The translations under genes were made by a program, and so were the position numbers. The notes below the pieces were generated by a model that did not search any database, was not told the origin of the DNA, and saw only the letters and a list, made by a program, of their open reading frames with translations. 64,000 bases of DNA from Tetraselmis striata. Taxonomy: Eukaryota > Chlorophyta > Chlorodendrophyceae > Chlorodendrales > Chlorodendraceae. The stretch covers positions 114,501 through 178,500 of the forward strand of contig VCJN01002135.1 in the NCBI GenBank assembly GCA_006384855.1, in the 5' to 3' direction. Shown piece by piece: positions 1-26,712 of the stretch (positions are counted from its first letter, which is position 1; each line of letters begins with the position of its first letter).

Positions 1-360
1 GGCAGGCGCGTGCTCCAAGACAACCTGTGGGATGCGATGGGAGGGGTGCCTACTCGGCACTTCAAGTTCGCTTGGTGGGCACACGCTATAGCAGGAGGAG
101 GGGCAGCCATAGTCAGAACACTATTGCTTTTACCGTGTGGTTTGTGCTCTGAATGCTGCCCTTGTGCCTTGATATGCACATCTACGTGTGTGGCAGCTGC
201 CCCCTACACAATATATGGACAATTTTGCAACTTTCTAATGGACACTAATGTTCACAGTACTTTACACAGTACATCAGCCAGCTACAAAAGTTATGGTGTG
301 TGTGTGCTGGGGGGGGGGGGGGGGGGGGGTATCTAGAACACACTTACAGTTCTTACTGGC
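1..360. other. no gene recognised; G homopolymer
   Basis: The stretch holds only short unconvincing ORFs and a run of about 20 G near 310-329. No family was recognised on either strand. It borders the left repeat of the YR element that begins near 361. Confidence 0.5.
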
Positions 361-12700: not shown

Positions 12701-15025
12701 TACACGGGTGCTGCCCTTAACACCGTGTGCGTATTTCGAGAGAATATGGCGGAAGCTGTAGTAATCTCATAAATAATATGCCGGTATGATTTGGCAAATC
12801 GACGCGCACACGCGCAGGCACGCACGCCCACAGGGGAAAATTGATATAGTAGAAGGCTTTCAGTTGTCATGTTTTATGCACAGGCGTGTGCGATGTGCGT
12901 GTATCCTGTATGTGAACATATCCCCAACCCTGAATCGATACTTGAAACCCTAAATCATTCTCAGCCCTGAATGCTGCAAACCCTGACCTGAATCCCCAAA
13001 ATATATCCCAATCAAGTTGCCTAGTGTGGGCTGACTGCGGCGAATAATTACGGATCGCAGCACTTTTTAAAGCCATTCATCGTTGGTCGCATCCTCCGCA
13101 CCGCCCTGCCCTGCTTGCTTGTGTTGGTTTTGCTGCTGATGGCTTGAGTTGGCCGCCGATGTTGTTGCGCGCAGAATGTGCAGCGCAAAGTTGACGCGGC
13201 GCAGCCGAGTAGAGCGGCCAAGAGCTCCCCGGACACGGAGGACATGCGCAAGAGGGAGGAGGAGCGCTGGGAGGTGCGAGTGAGGGCGGGGAGGCAGGAG
13301 GCGCGTGTGTGTGTGGGGGGGGGGGGGGGGGGGGGCGGCTGAATCGCTGTCGGTAATCCCACAAGCACCTTAACTGACATATCATGAATATTGTCATAGG
13401 TATAGTCAGTTGTTACACCATTCTGCGTCATCGGCGTGCATGCTGCGGCAAGTGCGGGTATAGATCCCATCCTTTGGTGGGCATAAAGCATGTAGGGGAA
13501 GGTGAGGGTGGTGAGGGACCAGATGCTGATGAGGCGAGAATTTTCAGGGTTGTGACCTTCGCTTCGAGTTAGCTCTTAGGGTTTGTTTAGGGTTAGCGGT
13601 TGTGGATTGATATCAAAGATCAATCGATATTGAAACTTTGTGTTACTCGGGTATCATGTTTAGGGCTATGATAGTCAATGGGTTTAGGGCTGGATGTAGG
13701 GCCTGATTAGCTGGGGGCAACGGCCATGTGGTGTCTTGCTGAGAGGGCGGTGGTGGGGGCGCTGACGGCGGTGCGCTGCAGGTGCTGATGGACCGGCTGG
13801 GCTATATCCTGGACGGCAAGGCAGGTAAGGAGGATGTGGAGAGACTAGCGGGCGACTTGGAGCGCAAAATTGCCAGCGAGCTGGAGGGCAAGGTAAACAA
13901 ACCCTACTGATCCCCGGTCGTGACCCCCTCCATGGAACTCATTGACACGCATGCTGCTCCCTGCTGCGTAACACATTCGCCTTTTCCCTGGCTGTTAATG
14001 TTTTCCAGGTTGAATCTCAGTGTCATGTAAAACCCATCATTTTTTTGGAATGTTTATTTTTTCTGCAATTCGAAATTTGTTTTTTCCTATTAGTCCTGTC
14101 TGTCTAAATTATCGTAACAGCAGAGAAGGCGGAGGGAGGCCCCATATGAAAGGCTTGCGAGACAAGGAAAGCCTTAATTTATATAAGAAAATCCTGTTAA
14201 TTGGTATAATGAAAGGGACTGAGAACCATGAAAAATTATGTAATGAACCGAAGGAAAAATATTGTATAAAAATATCGGTCGACCTCTCTCAGTTGGCCCC
14301 TTATTTATGATTAACGCAAAGGGAAATTGCAGTTCACGATAGTTCAAGCGGCGGTCGCTTCGTCTAGGTCTATGCGCTATCGAAATCGACTTTCGAAATC
14401 ATTCTGCACAAACTGAGCTGCGCTCTCTCGGCGATGCCCTGTGGGTATGTCCGCTGGTGGCTGTTGCTATTTAATTATCTTTCCGCGCTCGTGATGGATC
14501 ACTCGCAGCGAGTATCCCGCGCACTCGTGCTCTTCGCGTAGCGAGTTCCAACGCCTCTGTGTCGCGTGCCAGGGGCTGGCGGGCTCGATGGAGGGCATCT
14601 CGCTGCACGGTACCACCGAGTCGCGGCTCAAGGCGATCATCAGCGGCAAGGCGGACAAGGAAGAGGTGGACGGCATGTTTCAGAGCCTCCGCCGCGCGCT
14701 GGACGCCAAGCCGTCGTACTCGGAGATGCAGTCGGCGCTGAAGGCCAAGCTCGACATCCAGACCTACCTCGACAGCGGCAGCAAGGCGCGCCGCCCCGCC
14801 GAGTCGGAGGCCTCGCCTAGCCCGACGCCGCCCTCGGCGCCCCCCGGCGCGTTCCGCCCGCGCTCGATATCGCCCCACCAGGCGCGATCCTTCTCGCCGC
14901 CGCCCGCCGCGCGCCGCCTCGGCGTGTCCCCGGACTACGGCTACGGCGCCAGCACGCGCTCCGTGCTGGAGGAGCAGGCGCGCACCATGTTCAGCAGCCG
15001 CATGTCGGACGCCTCCTTCTCCTGA
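4385..15025 (+). CDS. Large coiled-coil protein, 16 exons
   Basis: Proposed exons: 4385-4446, 4834-4911, 5261-5354, 5580-6098, 6993-7298, 7895-8020, 8946-9138, 9439-9586, 10099-10213, 10635-10754, 11248-11394, 11688-11876, 12335-12451, 13175-13273, 13782-13892, 14573-15025. All phases agree and give about 958 residues. The protein is almost entirely heptad-like helix rich in E, R, A and L (for example LRQLEEHFGREVE and RRRVEELAARLD). K-x-D spacers such as GKVDKASMEKF, CTKDDARRV and GKADKEEVDGMF recur. The C-terminus is Ser-Pro rich (RSISPHQARSFSPPP) and may be phosphorylated. One intron uses a GC donor (4912); the donor of exon 9439-9586 is weak and 9603 is an alternative. The start is uncertain because the frame is open upstream of 4385. 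A structural, perhaps ciliary or centriolar, role is inference; no family was recognised. Confidence 0.8.
4630..4668 (+). repeat. C homopolymer tract in intron 1
   Basis: Nearly pure C for about 40 nt, interrupted by single G or T bases, in the first intron of the coiled-coil gene. A G tract of about 20 nt follows at 4765-4785 in the same intron. Confidence 0.8.
7541..7592 (+). repeat. (TG)n microsatellite
   Basis: About 26 uninterrupted TG units followed closely by a G tract (7600-7614), inside the intron between exons 6993-7298 and 7895-8020 of the coiled-coil gene. ORFs rich in Cys-Val or Thr-His across it are artefacts of the repeat. Confidence 0.9.
9329..9364 (+). repeat. Inverted repeat / hairpin in intron
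   Basis: Arms 9329-9344 and 9349-9364 pair at 15 of 16 positions around a 4-nt loop. A second, outer pairing of GCTTTACC with GGTAAAGC adds to the fold. It lies about 75 nt upstream of the 3' splice site of exon 9439-9586. It may be a foldback element or an RNA structure; no target duplication was identified. Confidence 0.6.
9684..9731 (+). repeat. (TG)n microsatellite
   Basis: About 23 TG units in the intron after exon 9439-9586, between two C tracts (9612-9642 and 9837-9854). Confidence 0.9.
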
Positions 15026-19019: not shown

Positions 19020-19024
19020 TTACA
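19020..19024 (-). terminator. TGTAA poly(A) signal, chaperone gene
   Basis: Minus-strand TGTAA lies about 225 nt beyond the stop codon at 19248-19250, fitting the chlorophyte pattern. Confidence 0.4.
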
Positions 19025-19247: not shown

Positions 19248-22200
19248 TCACCCAAACATCTTCTTCGCAAACTGCTTCTCCTTCTCGAGGCGCTTGGCCC
19301 GGGCCGTCTTCACCCTCTCGCACAGCTTGATGATCATCTTGTCGTCCGGCTCCAGGTCCAGAGCTGCCTGGGAGTCCTTGTGCGCCTCGTCCAGGTACTG
19401 CGCGAGCGGGTGAGGGCCAGGCAACCGGGACTTGGTTCATGCCAAACCAGTGGGAGGGGGAGTACAGCAACTTGCGGGGGGAATTGCGCCACGACTATTG
19501 CATAGCAAACAGTCACAGTGGCATCAATATCCCATTGGAAGTTCCTTGGCCATGGAGAGGTTCCGCGGAAGAAGTTGGGAAAATAGCTATCAGTTCTCCC
19601 GACAAGAGTGTGAGCGCGAAGGAGAGCATAACCGCATGAAAGAGTACATGAAAGGGGGATATCTTTATCTACAAACGGTACCCGAACAGAGATAACACCC
19701 CGGGTTCAAATATACAGGTACAGTTACAGAATATGATATATATATGTAGCCCTGAAGTAACTATTGCACAGCAGTTCATTGAAAGTATATAATATCTGTT
19801 CTCCATGTTTCATCATGAGCAGGAAGGCGGAGAACCTCTGACGACGTAGTTTAACGATTATTGGTCACATTGGGCGCACGGAGCGAAGCGCGCGCTCGAA
19901 ACAGCGGGAGGGCCCCGCACCCCCAGTTTCTCCATGGCCGAGGCACGGCGGAACAGCGCCTTGACGCAGCCCGCATCCAGCTTGATCGCGTCGGTGCAGT
20001 GCTCCTGGACCTTGCGGAGGAGCTGCTCGGCCGCGTCCTTGGACACCTGCTCGACGAGTGCCGGAGTCCGTGTCAGCGCTCGGAAATGTGCGGCGGCGAG
20101 CCGGAGGACGTCAACCCGACACAAACGTGACTGTCGCCTCGTGTGAATGAGCACGAGATATTCACATAAGGGCAGTACTCTTTACGCAGTATTGCGGCAT
20201 TTTCGATGTCGAGTACGAGTGCAATATAACGACGCTTCAATACCGGCCGTCCGTAGATATACCCGATGGACATAAACGCGAGCACGCGTTTTCCCGTATC
20301 TTGGCGAGAAATCCGGAATTACTCGACACGGCCGACAAGAAGCTGCGGTCGCGTGTGAGAGTGTTGCGGCCCGATTTACCTTTGCAGTTTCTTCCTCGGC
20401 GAGTTTCAGGTACCCCATCGACAGGTTGAGGTGAAGCGAGAGCTTCAGGGCGTCCACCTAGCCGAGACACAGCGCGTGATGGGGGGGTCGTCAGCAGTCT
20501 GAACCTGTCGGGAGTGGGCGCATCAGCTACAGTCGGCTGCAAAGCCATGGGACGGAGGGGTGTTGGGAGGGGGGGGGGGGGGGGGGGGGGCAGGCATGCA
20601 GCAAGCGCCGCGCCGCACCTCTTTTTTGTCGTCGTCCGTGAGGTCGAAGAACTTGCCGGTGTGCTGCAGCGCCTTGGCCCAGCGCTGGATGGCAGGCGTG
20701 ACGTTGCCGCCCTGAACAGCACAGACCGCGGAGAGAGGAAACATACATTCAGCGGTTGTTAGGCAGCGCGTGGAGTGAGACTGCGCCAAAGTCTATATCG
20801 AGATCATGAAATATCAAAACGACATCGAAATCGATATGGACAACTGATGCTACTCTGGGACGCCTTGAAGCCCAGGCCAACCCGCGGCGGAATCCCGCAC
20901 CGGGAGTGACGACTGAGGGGCGCGCTACCTTGTAGAGCTCGTTGGCCTCGGACTTGTTGAGGTTGACGAGGCGCATGCGCTCCGGCTTGGCCAGCTTGCG
21001 GAAGTCGTGGTCCTCCTTCTCCTGTCCCTCCGCCTCCGCCTTGGCGGCCTCCGCCTCCGCCTTCATCTCCGCCTCCTTGCGCTGCTTCTCTGCCTCTTCC
21101 GCCTCGTACCACGCGGGGCACGCGGCGCGGACCTGCATGCGGCCAAATGCGAAAGCGTAGCGACGATGGTCAGTCCCGCGTCGGGCAGCATCTTCCAGGC
21201 CATGAATATAAATAGTCTTTGACATGAACATCCGTAACTTAACATCTGATTGGGGTTGGCGGGTAGCCCCCAGTTAATTGTTTCGCATCGGCACGGAGTC
21301 TCGGGACACATCCGGGCAGTTATAATCATGAAGTCGTATTCTCATACCCTGTAGAGTTCCAGATAATGCAGGTTTTCTCTCTTTTTCAGGAAGGGGGGGG
21401 GGGGGGGGGGGGCAAACACCAAGCAGATATAGCGAACCTAAAAGCGTCAGTAGCACGGCATGTTTATGCATAATTCTCCTGTACCCTGTACCTCTCTGGC
21501 ATTTCACTGACCTGCCCTTTGTAAACAAGATAATAAGTTCACCGAGGTACTTTCAGGGAAAGTCGCATCATTGATATGATGCTTTTGAACTAATAGAAAT
21601 GGGCCGCCCCGGGCTTGCATTCCGGTGATAGGAATGACACCAATTGTCGCTCTTGCATGGCAGAGGCCGGGGCCGACCTTCTCATCCAGCTGCTTCAGGT
21701 AGGTCTGGTACACCGCCAGCTCCGCGTCCTCGCCATCCCCGTACATCCAGTCCTCGGCCTCCTCCAGCATCGGCCCCACCGTCTCCTCGCGCAGCGCGCC
21801 GCCGTGCTTGCCCTCCGACACCGAGCTGCGGGTCTGCGCGCGGAGGACAGCGCGGCGAGGACACACGTTGAGCGACGCCGCTCAAGCCACCGAGCGATAG
21901 AGCCACGTACCGGTTGGGAAGAGATGCACAACAAAAAACGCTGATCGGAGAGGCGCCCCTCTGCCCCCTCAGGGTACCCTATAAGTCGCCTGCGTGTAAG
22001 GCGCCTCTGTCTCTGTCTTTCGATTCTCTAATCATGTGCATGAGCACACCTGCCATGCGTGGCATCCGCATGCTTTCACTTGCGTATGAGCGGAGCTCCG
22101 GCACGGGGTGCCACGTGCTACTCGTCCAATCGCATCGCGTAGGTCATGGAGCGACAGTTGCCGCGCCTACTGATGAGACAGTACTGGTAAGGAATGGTAG

Positions 22201-25200
22201 CCGGGCGTGGAGCTGCCCCTGGTATATGTAACACGTGAAGCGCATGACCGTGTTGCCGTTGGCTTGTGGCGGAGCTTGGGTGTAGCATGCTTGGGCAGCC
22301 TGCATGCGCCGATACTATACACGTGTAGTAACGACAACGATACCTGTGCGGTGCTTGCGGACGACACCACAGTAATGGACGCCTGCGCACCCCGTGCCAA
22401 GCTATGCACCCCTACCTGTACCTGCTAGTGATATGAGTATACTGCACACTCGTACTACGGGTGTCAGCACACCTACAAGAACCCATATCATTACAAGCTT
22501 CAGATTGGGCTCGCAACGCAACCTGTGCAAACTTTCGCTGTAGTTGTGCTTTAGTTTCGTCTACATTTGACCTCTGGCAGGCAGGGCGGGTTTCTTCCCT
22601 GCAGCGTTTTTATTATCGCGTCAGAACCGTGCAGTGTGACTGTATCTCACGTGTCAATCAAACGACCAGAGTCATCATTCATGGGTGGACACCGCCCACG
22701 TATCAAGCACATCCATGTTTAGACAGAGTGTGCGCTGGGCATCCGCCCCCTCGCATATGGTTCACATGGTGACCTTTTGGACATTTTCAGGTTCCGCCGT
22801 TTTTTCATGTTTGAGCTGGCAGCACAGGGCAGGACGACACCTCCAGCGGGTGTATACACAGCGGTGATGGGGAGGCAAGTAGGAGCGAGCCGTCACGCGG
22901 TGGCAGGCGCCCACCGAGAGGATGAAGCTCTCGAGCGCGTTGCGGGCATCCGCCTTGGCGGCCTCCTCCGCGTCCTGCTGCTGCATCGCGCCCTCCAGCG
23001 CCACCGCGGCCGCGAGGGCCTCGTCCGGCCACGAGGCGGAGGCCTCCGCGGCAAGGCAGCAGCTCTGCAAGGGCCGGCACGCGGATGATGCCCGCGCGCA
23101 GCTTCTCGACCGCCGCGGGGTCCTGCGAGGCAGGAGGCCAGGCCACACTTCTCAGCTGCGGACGTCCGCCTCCGCTGTGCTACTGACAGAGGAATTGCTG
23201 CCCGATCGGCATGAGCATGCCAGATTGCCGGATACGCCCGGTTTGAAAAGGACCGAAATTGCGCAGAGGTTGGTTGTGAGAGGGTTGTGGGATGGCGGGG
23301 TTTCATTCAGCACAACAGACTCAACACCGAAATCCAGGCCATGAGTTCAATGGTTCTCTGGAAGTCGGGGCATGAAAGGCTTTACATTAAGAATAACTTA
23401 GTACTCAGGCTGGCCCGAGTTCAACCTCAGCCAGGGCTCAAGTGAGCAGAATTCAGCCTGAAGTGAGAATGGACGAGTTCGGGTGATTGCCGGGAGGAAT
23501 TTCGCCGTCACTGACTTCAGCTAAGTCGAGACTTTCGTCACAAGGGCGCTGGTGTGCTGTGTTCAGGCCGTTTCAAAACAACCACAAGACACTTTATAAC
23601 TATGGGGGGTGGTCCATGGGGGGTGGTCCGGGGGGGGGGGGGGGGGGTTTACAACAAGGGCAGGGGCGCGGAAGGAGCAGATGTGGAGGAGGAGGAGGAG
23701 GAGGAGAGAGTGGGTTCGGGAGGGGAGGAGGCGGCGCGCTGCACATGGCATTCCACACGCACCTTGAAGCCCTCCGACAGCGTAGACTCCAGCTCTGCGG
23801 CCTCGACAATGAAGGCGGCGCCCAGGGCAAAGCAGGAGGAGCTGCACACCGCGCCGGGCGGAGGGGGGGGGGGGGGGGGGCTTCCTCAGCTCATCAGACA
23901 AGGAGGGGACCCCTCAGGGGTTGGGGTCTGTAGTGCAGGCAGTTGTCCCACTGACCCCCCCCCCCCCCCCCCCGCCCCCCATGACACCGGAATAGATGTC
24001 TGGGCGGCGCCCAGCTCGTCGCGGCATGCAGGCAAGCATGTCGCCCCTCCGGGGATGACACCCGCCTCACCTGTCCAGCATTGTGCTGAGGATGGACTCG
24101 CTGCCGAAGAGGGTGGCCACCGTCTTCTTCACCTACGGACAGAGCAGCCAGGGGCAGGGAAGCAGAGCCAGCCCTGAGCACCGCGGAACTTGAGTGCCTT
24201 GGCAGGGCAGGGTGGGGAAATAGGGAGGTAGAGGAAGGGGGGGGGGAGGGTAAGCTCGGTGATTCCATGTGATAGCGGCACTATTGCTGAAATGGCGGGG
24301 CCAAGGCCTGAACTCATCTGGTGACGATGGCGGGTATTGATCCAATCCGCAGTATATACTGTGTTGGTAATGTCATATTACGTACCAGACTTATAGTAAT
24401 GGGAATACAAGCGATGATTCAACTAAGATATCCCAAAGGTTTTTATACATTCCGGGTTTGAGGTTGCGAGCCATGGCGGGCACTTATGATGGGGTTCTAC
24501 TAAAAACTATCAAAATGTCAATCCAATGAAGCTTCATGGTACAGCATGACAGTGCCCGGGAGGGTGGAGGGAGGTCCCGGCGCGCACCCAGGGCACGCGC
24601 GACGTTCCGCCGGCAAGCTCCACTGCGGCAATGTCGCCGGTCGACAGGCCCGCCTGGCTCAGGACGTCCGTCAGCATGGCGCTCAGGCTAGCCTGCTGGT
24701 TGCTGGAGATGTCCTCAAACCTGGCGGAAGCATGGCCAAAGTAACCCGGGTCAGCGGCGCTCTAGCACCCCTTCCTCTGTGACCCCTGACACCCCTGTGA
24801 CCCGCCCTTCCCATGGGGGATGCCATTTACTGGGCAGCGGGAGGGCAGCAGCGGCGTCATTAGACGGCAAGTGCAGACTGAGAACAGAGATGTGCCCGTC
24901 GCTTTCGTCTGGAGTGAGCAGGGAGGGGGCAGCATGCGCTGGAGGTGGGCCGGGGTGCAGTTGCCCGCAGGTGCCCGGAGGTGCCAGGACCCACTTGCTG
25001 CGCGAGAGGGTCAGCTTGAGGTCCCGATCATCGTCGCCGACGCACTCCAGCACCGTGAAGGCGTCCGGGACGGTGCTCAGGGTGCGCTTCACCTGCGGAC
25101 GGAGAGGTGAAGGGGAATCAGGGTGTGTGGGTTGGGGGGGGGAGCCATGGCGCCAGCAGGCGAGCCTCCGCCCCCCCCCCTCTCATGCAGCTAGGGTGTG

Positions 25201-26436
25201 TCCTGCCCTGCCCCGCCCTGCCCTGCCCTGTTCTCACAGCAAAAGGGATGGCGAGGTGACCGGCCGCTCACCTTCTCGCACTCCACAAACAGGCGGTACC
25301 CCTGCCTGGACTTGGGTGACACCGTGACGCCGTTCCCCTCACACTGGGCCTGGACGCGGGTTCGCACATTGTTAGATGCCAGCCTGGCCGGCACGCCCAC
25401 CCTTCCCAGCCGCAGCCGCCCCTGATCTGCCCACCCCTGATAGGGCATGGTGTGGTGTGGACAGCGGCAGAGGGGGGGGAAGGGGGTTCTCGGAGGGATG
25501 CATGCACCGCGCCTGTGCCGCACCTGGAACTCTGCGGATATGGCGCTGTCCAGCTGGTAGCCTGCGTTGTTGCACGTGGAGGCGCAGGCCAGCTTGGTGG
25601 GGGGCGCGCCCGCCGCCACGCTGTAGATGGTGCAGCAGGTGAAGGCGTGGCCTGCGCGCGGCGGGGGGTGATGGAGGCAGGGACCGAGGCGGCGCCCTCA
25701 GACAACGCAGCCAGCCATGGCAGACAGCCCCATGCCTCTCAACGGTGCTACGTCAGAGCCCCCACCCTCCCCTCACCCGCCACGGTGTGCCTGCCCATGC
25801 GCATGTGAAAGGCAGGGAACGGAGCCGCACCAATGTCCAGGAGCATGATGTTCTTGGAGTCTGCGCCCTCTGGCAGGGGATGCTGCACGTTGTAGCACGA
25901 GATGGCAGCGTCGCTGGAGGGGATGACGGACATGCTGGCGAGGCCCGCGATCTTGCCCGCCGCGTACAGGCGCGCCACCTGCTGGCTGCTGTACGCGGGC
26001 GGGACGCAGAGCGCTGCGTGCGCGACCGGCACCTCGAGCTGCCCCGCCTGGGCGTGCTTCACCAGCTGAGCCAGCAACATGGCGATCATCTGCTCCGGCA
26101 GCAGCTTTAAACCGGCTCCCTTGTACGTCACCTGCGTCCCCCGCCACCACGCGTCAATGCCCCGCGTCATGGCTGGCTACGCCGGGAAGCTGCCACGTGC
26201 CACTGGGCAACAGTGAAAGCCTACGCCCCGCACGCACCTCAGCTACGGCAAAGCCATTCTCATCGGCCGTCAGCGAGTAGCGCATGTGCTCATCCGGCGC
26301 AGCCTCCATCTCCTCCATCGTCTTACCCAGCAACAGCATGAGCTGCAACAGGGAGCAAGGGATAACATCCCGTCTCTAAGCGGGCAGCGCAATAAAATCT
26401 GCGTGTGCATGCTTTTGATCTGCTTTATATTTGGGA

Positions 26437-26467
<31 letters not shown>

Positions 26468-26712
26468 ACGTTGTTGATCGTGTTCTGGGGGTTCACGCCG
26501 AGCTGCCCCTGCGCCTTCTCGCCCACCGAGCGCTCGCTGCCGTGGAACGACACCAGCGTGGGTGTGGCGCGGTTGGACATCTCATTGATCACCAGGTCCG
26601 CCTTGCCGACCTGTGCTCCCGCGGTGCTCCGCGCCACCACGGACTTGGAGTTGCCCAGGTCAAAGCCCAAGATGAGCCCCTTCTGGGCGTTGCCCCCCGC
26701 CACCGGCACCAT
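19248..26712 (-). CDS. Hsp110-like chaperone fused to FKBP-type TPR domain
   Basis: Exons on the minus strand: 26712-26470, 26342-26238, 26131-25777, 25651-25524, 25349-25272, 25092-24991, 24719-24588, 24132-24071, 23841-23763, 23122-22915, 21833-21678, 21132-20929, 20711-20619, 20457-20380, 20046-19921, 19397-19248; about 760 residues. The ATPase half has GFDLGNSKS (phosphate 1), a degenerate LDIGAAPFPAF (phosphate 2) and VELAGGTSRVP (adenosine). It continues to GFK and then to an alpha-helical lid with RNALESFILS and EDWMYGDGED, the Hsp110 hallmark. Most of the substrate-binding beta domain is absent. After a Glu/Ala/Lys linker comes a TPR domain (SEANELYK, SLHLNLSMGYLKL, VKALFRRAS) ending KQFAKKMFG, as in FKBP51/52/62 proteins. 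No signal peptide, so probably cytosolic. Exon 23122-22915 needs a 1-nt frame change or a 16-nt intron, and the 24991/24719 junction is off by one base. Two adjacent genes remain possible. Confidence 0.75.

Follow-up and report, generated by a model that had tools for sequence, protein, structure and literature searches.

A probable fusion of an Hsp110-derived ATPase domain and lid with a predicted EEVD-binding TPR domain in Tetraselmis striata

The Hsp110 family, described by yeast SSE1 and SSE2 and human HSPH1 and HSPA4, also has members in plants. In DNAJC7/TPR2, CHIP, HOP and Hip, the last of which carries a TPR, docking onto an EEVD terminus is coupled to the control of Hsp70. More specifically, the table of PMC5751217 lists DNAJC7 as a TPR combined with a J domain and CHIP as a TPR combined with an E3 ligase, and the same source assigns binding of the Hsp90 EEVD to the TPR domains of FKBP51 and FKBP52. 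For the exchange factors, the passages on SSE1 in the review PMC4753570 describe how SSE1 and Hsp70 meet ATPase domain to ATPase domain, with additional contacts provided by the helix bundle, and how SSE1 requires the binding of ATP and not its hydrolysis.

A locus on contig VCJN01002135.1 of Tetraselmis striata appears to combine elements of both systems. The window, i.e. the whole stretch of 64,000 nucleotides that was analysed, contains on its minus strand (26712-19248) 16 exons that join into a single frame of 727 codons plus a stop, with the predicted domain order Hsp110-type ATPase domain, Hsp110/Hsp70 lid, Glu/Lys/Ala linker and FKBP-like TPR. The reading that we put forward, with about an even chance of being right, is that of one gene for an Hsp110-derived Hsp70 exchange factor that lost its substrate-binding beta-sandwich (SBD-beta), gained a clamp TPR and is predicted to be tethered to an EEVD terminus. 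The features of the locus are the following.

Exons 1-5, minus strand: 26712-26470, 26342-26238, 26131-25831, 25651-25524, 25349-25272
Exons 6-10, minus strand: 25092-24995, 24720-24588, 24132-24071, 23841-23763, 23064-22915
Exons 11-16, minus strand: 21833-21678, 21132-20929, 20711-20619, 20457-20380, 20046-19921, 19397-19248
23763..26712, minus strand: Hsp110-type nucleotide-binding domain, exons 1-9 (residues 14-395 match Pfam HSP70)
22915..23122, minus strand: exon 10, start of the lid; the acceptor at 23064 preserves the frame
21678..21833, minus strand: exon 11, remainder of the lid, EDWMYGDGEDAE (SSE1: EEWLYDEGFDSI), from Pfam and PDB matches
21133..21677, minus strand: intron 11, the decisive junction of the Hsp110 and TPR parts, in phase 0, with donor GTCGGC after AAG and acceptor GCATGCAG
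20929..21132, minus strand: exon 12, encoding the Glu/Lys/Ala linker and helix 1 of the TPR, the latter with clamp residues K571 and N575, from the FKBP51 alignment
19248..20711, minus strand: exons 13-16, rest of the TPR with clamp residues N621, K665 and R669, from TPR co-chaperones in the PDB
Within exons 13-16, minus strand: C-terminal helix ...EKEKQFAKKMFG, which closes the TPR part in the model
19248, minus strand: stop codon TGA, end of exon 16
19020..19024, minus strand: putative poly(A) signal TGTAA, roughly 220 bases past the stop

All 15 introns of the model are of the GT-AG type and internal stop codons are absent. GC3 amounts to 91% across the whole model and to 77-96% exon by exon; this is a eukaryotic gene, rich in introns and in GC3. 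With a codon table trained on exons 1-9, the lid exons 10-11 score 0.61 per codon in the model frame, which is the best of the six (the best antisense frame reaches 0.24 and both other sense frames are negative). The TPR exons 12-16 score +0.46 in the model frame, versus -0.76 and -1.01 in the other sense frames and -0.17, +0.04 and -1.22 in the antisense frames. TGTAA is the poly(A) signal of chlorophytes, and the copy downstream of the stop is weak evidence because 41 such motifs occur on the same strand of the window. The coordinates that the original prediction gave for the exons 21833-21678, 21132-20929 and 20711-20619 were exact, with joins in phase 0, and the lid, linker and TPR indeed follow one another in one open spliced frame, as it had claimed. 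Searches in collections where a eukaryotic nuclear gene would not be expected yielded 3 pattern matches in viral contigs with the C-terminal 318 amino acids as the query and 34 in the genomes of bacteria and archaea with the full-length protein, none of which was confirmed in either case; this outcome carries little information on relatives.

The gene contains six single-base runs of C or G with a length of 18-27 (26464-26438, 23973-23955, 23880-23863, 23647-23630, 21412-21393 and 20590-20569), located in introns 1, 8, 9, 11 and 13; assemblies may slip at such places. Elsewhere in the window, the plus-strand ORF 55923-56324 matches AMP-binding below the threshold (5.2e-06; 25.9 bits, cut-off 29.9) and may belong to an acyl-CoA synthetase gene. 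Another plus-strand ORF, 14495-15022, has a GC3 of 93%, and ends in ...SSRMSDASFS; its sole Pfam match with an E-value of 1 or less lies below the cut-off.

The ATPase domain matches Pfam HSP70 with an E-value of 1e-64 over profile positions 1-372 of 599. Among the best 60 of 151 PDB matches of the whole protein, the top one is the Hsp110 SSE1 (3.5e-45), compared to 1.9e-39 for the best canonical Hsp70, and a second stretch of the SSE1 match (0.002) covers the lid. The simple statement that the ATPase domain is closest to SSE1 was dropped: the whole-protein score of 158 bits includes the lid, and in a phmmer search with the ATPase domain alone HSPA6 is slightly ahead (140.7 bits versus 136.9 for SSE1). 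In a tree of seven ATPase domains, including that of E. coli DnaK, the Tetraselmis domain was grouped with SSE1 and HSP105 against DnaK, HSPA1A, HSPA2 and HSPA6 with support 100/98, on a very long branch (1.87) that raises a long-branch warning and makes the placement unsure. At the 54 positions that split two Hsp110s from three Hsp70s, the domain has the Hsp110 residue at 19, the Hsp70 residue at 7 and neither at 28. The domain thus falls on the Hsp110 branch and not with the canonical Hsp70s, as far as the long branch permits, and considering the tree grouping, the 19 versus 7 diagnostic positions and the branch length we call the protein Hsp110-derived and divergent. The DIGH loop is as in SSE1; the likeness to the described Hsp110s comprises the tree grouping, this loop, the lid and the kept interface and contact residues treated below.

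A difference from these Hsp110s concerns the substrate-binding part. Exon 9 finishes the ATPase domain (SEGFK) and exon 10 opens the lid, leaving a gap in the HSP70 profile from about 372 to 498; both SBD-beta and its insertion loop are absent from the model. The lid piece matches Pfam HSP70 over profile positions 498-593 (21.5 bits, cut-off 20.6; 7.6e-05) and its best PDB matches on its own are BiP (0.0024) and SSE1 (0.0062). A hidden SBD-beta exon in introns 9-10 was rejected: there are 29 sense ORF pieces of at least 25 amino acids, and among the 28 scanned with Pfam (all except a 27-residue piece at 22786) none matches HSP70, the scan giving two sub-threshold matches, both to non-HSP70 families. 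The absence of SBD-beta is the main addition to the earlier account of the locus, of which the Hsp110 parts and the TPR fusion stand and which overlooked this loss, the K69M-like change and altered ATPase residues treated below, and the probable frame slip in exon 10.

This slip relates to the 58 bases 5' of the acceptor at 23064 (23122-23065, minus strand), which are coding-like in another frame, with the codon scores switching frame; the stretch reads, off-frame, DPAAVEKLRAGIIRVPALA. When the best windows of the 15 introns are compared, it is the sole one within the exon range of 0.32-0.87 (+0.51). It may correspond to the final part of the beta domain that was lost, together with a base error, and a VP..EL motif resembling the one in this region is presumably present in plant Hsp110s. 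The upstream signal weakens the acceptor at 23064 as a full account of exon 10. Read literally from 23122 the exon departs from the lid frame, and when a one-base slip is allowed at about 23056 it scores 45.5 versus 31.4 for the in-frame acceptor, a comparison that favours the slip model because it covers more sequence and uses the best of the slip points tried. A one-base slip near 23056 is probable on these scores, and a base error, alternative acceptors and a true frameshift would each fit the signal.

The residues that matter for exchange were mapped on yeast SSE1, to which the protein is identical at 113 of 372 positions in the ATPase domain and at 32 of 99 in the lid. Of the residues compared, D8, G10, N11, R47, I163, D203-H206, G234, E272, K273, K275, S279, G343, T344, P348, E554, M557, Q560, D561, N572 and E575 of SSE1 are kept. 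Changed are N12, N13, K69 (M), D174 (S), V175 (S), S207-T210, G233 (A), T269, K276 (R), T345 (S), I347 (V), N555, E556, L558 (Q) and D369 (S). Among the kept ones, R47, I163 and M557 (R61, I177 and M436 in the Tetraselmis protein) are located at the ATPase-lid interface according to the part of PMC4664246 that deals with them, and N572 and E575 (N451 and E454) are lid residues that contact Hsp70; as given in PMC11479587 for this pair, N572Y/E575A leaves SSE1 with 20% of its Hsp70 binding and 5% of its exchange. At four sites targeted by mutation in work on SSE1 the Tetraselmis residue is another one (A280T, N281V, T365M and N367D). The pairs A280T/N281A and T365V/N367S are listed in PMC4664246 among further SSE1 pairs studied by mutation, and in the relevant section of PMC5440654 A280T belongs to a set of four substitutions which jointly impair the interaction between SSE1 and Hsp70.

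The change of SSE1 K69 to methionine (M83) corresponds to the K69M variant of SSE1. In the experiments described for it in PMC5440654 this variant is hydrolysis-defective, yet luciferase reactivation in yeast equals that of the wild type; the same section cites an earlier report in which K69M was inactive in Hsp104-independent disaggregation and a later one in which it was functional. The binding of ATP is not assured, since G233 is replaced by Ala and the residues aligned to D174 and D369 are Ser. Judged from the alignment, the protein looks hydrolysis-dead, with the lid contacts retained and residues of the ATPase domain altered. Unlike the described Hsp110s, it thus combines the loss of SBD-beta and its loop with K69 changed to M, altered ATPase-domain residues and a C-terminal TPR.

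The TPR part alone has 49 matches in the PDB, designed TPRs included, and among these are RPAP3, UNC45, AIPL1, Cyp40, FKBP42, FKBP52 and FKBP51; the best chains of the named proteins range from 3.5e-10 to 1.8e-06. For the first two repeats the best match is FKBP51 (0.0057), and the single-repeat Pfam models stay below the cut-off (TPR_2 with 19.9 and 22.8 bits versus 27). The domain resembles that of FKBP51 and FKBP52 in its three repeats, the clamp and the C-terminal helix extension, and differs in about 10 extra residues (within AEEETAKVSKDAAEQ) between repeats 2 and 3, as judged by eye, in the attached Hsp110 part and in the FK506-binding domain, FKBP_C being absent from the 4 Pfam matches with an E-value of 1 or less. 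The carboxylate-clamp consensus K5N9-N6-K2R6, as formulated in PMC2939883, was placed by hand with the help of the alignments with FKBP51 and UNC45, and all five residues (K571, N575, N621, K665 and R669) are found at the consensus positions. Both the presence of the clamp and the FKBP-type character of the TPR had been anticipated in the original prediction. It had also proposed an exchange factor docked on Hsp70; the fusion and the clamp agree with this, but as the dock Hsp90 is at least as likely, since repeats 1-2 match FKBP51 and FKBP51/52 bind the EEVD of Hsp90. In our own estimate, Hsp90 would be the dock with a probability near one half, Hsp70 is a plausible but lesser candidate and another acidic C terminus would be rather improbable.

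The fusion is probably real. The join between exons 11 and 12 is predicted from its splice sites, its phase and the drop in coding signal beyond exon 11 and ahead of exon 12. In leave-one-out scoring, the donor of intron 11 reaches 5.35 (2.99-11.02 for the donors of the gene) and its acceptor 8.56 (0.64-13.38 for the acceptors). Under a codon table that includes the exons under test, exon 11 read through to its stop gives 57 codons at -0.82 per codon, exon 12 extended upstream gives 47 codons at -0.53, and the best 25-codon window of intron 11 reaches +0.14; for reference, the median over 3614 stop-free 57-codon windows taken from outside the gene is -0.51. With the table trained on exons 1-9, all three sense frames of intron 11 are negative. 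These low read-through and extension scores suggest that coding ends at the end of exon 11 and resumes at the start of exon 12; exon 12 itself scores 0.83 per codon, again under a table to which it contributed. The linker was dropped as an Hsp110 tail and as proof of fusion: its likeness to the SSE1 tail falls short of significance (the score is attained by 140 of 2000 shuffles), and therefore exon 12 by itself does not tie the two domains. The same missing likeness would suit two adjacent genes, an Hsp110-like one that closes beyond exon 11 and an independent one for a TPR co-chaperone that starts at the ATG by the exon 12 acceptor (MQVRAACPAWYE...), an arrangement which we consider unlikely. 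This ATG (ATGCAG) is located two codons 5' of exon 12 in a frame open from 21273, and the donor GTCGGC is atypical within a gene whose other 14 donors start with GTG or GTA. However, the Hsp110 part would then close with the poorly scoring 57-codon read-through, a terminator, promoter and 5' leader would be squeezed into about 370 bases, in which context the absence of TGTAA from intron 11 is weak evidence, and the N terminus of the TPR protein would be a charged stretch of 40 residues, at the place expected for a continuation of the lid helix. In addition, the sole AG scoring above 2 within 21300-21050, with a matrix that included the site, is the exon 12 acceptor, in phase.

The locus might also represent a decaying pseudogene or an assembly artefact, with a broken Hsp110 copy beside, or running into, a TPR gene. 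Given the probable slip in exon 10, assembly error or decay has to be taken into account, and the divergent active-site residues, the long tree branch and the missing SBD-beta would be in line with it. We nevertheless find this explanation improbable, as the other 15 exons are open and uniformly within the GC3 range given above, a consensus error would equally produce a single-base slip, and the in-frame acceptor at 23064 bypasses it. Finally, a real fusion may have no exchange function, the ATPase domain and lid serving as a regulatory scaffold and the TPR targeting Hsp90 or another acidic C terminus. The changed ATPase-domain and catalytic residues and the FKBP-like TPR are compatible with such a scaffold, but the lid contacts and the residues of the ATPase-lid interface are kept, and its probability seems low indeed.

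For the single fused gene, a mechanism can be put forward tentatively, and we hold it somewhat less probable than an even chance: a tethered exchange factor, i.e. an Hsp110 without its holdase domain in which the natural K69M change holds the ATP-bound form and the TPR sits on the EEVD of Hsp90 (or Hsp70), would bring the resetting of Hsp70 and the hand-over of the client onto one polypeptide. The protein retains the ATPase domain and the helix bundle, the parts that touch Hsp70 in the SSE1 passages of PMC4753570. All steps beyond the domain order we infer. ATP would be bound and left unhydrolysed, K69 being Met, and the ATPase domain and lid would fold together as in SSE1. The lid would grip the ATPase domain of Hsp70 and open it, leading to the release of ADP, and binding of the TPR to the C-terminal EEVD of Hsp90 or Hsp70 would deliver the exchange locally. 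Docked on Hsp90, the protein would act as a HOP-like bridge and reset Hsp70 while the client is passed on; docked on Hsp70, it would form a two-point clamp that offsets the weakened contacts of the ATPase domain. By analogy, EEVD docking would be coupled to Hsp70 control as in DNAJC7/TPR2, CHIP, HOP and Hip, in contrast to which the part joined to the docking TPR would be a nucleotide exchange factor.

The word TPR is absent from the main text of the exchange-factor review PMC4753570, and the screen of plant and algal Hsp70s in PMC10687569 was confined to proteins of 50-90 kDa and did not include the Hsp110s. An Hsp110-TPR architecture was not found in titles and abstract openings of the open-licence PMC literature among the matches listed, in agreement with the original statement that no such architecture was known; the annotations of algal genomes may already include proteins of this kind. 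EEVD-binding TPRs are known to be joined to J domains, ubiquitin ligases and isomerases, and within the literature searched an exchange factor would be a new partner. If the proposed reading is true, exchange would be separated from substrate holding in an Hsp110, and the Tetraselmis protein would constitute a natural construct for asking whether the substrate domain of an Hsp110 is required for the resetting of Hsp70.
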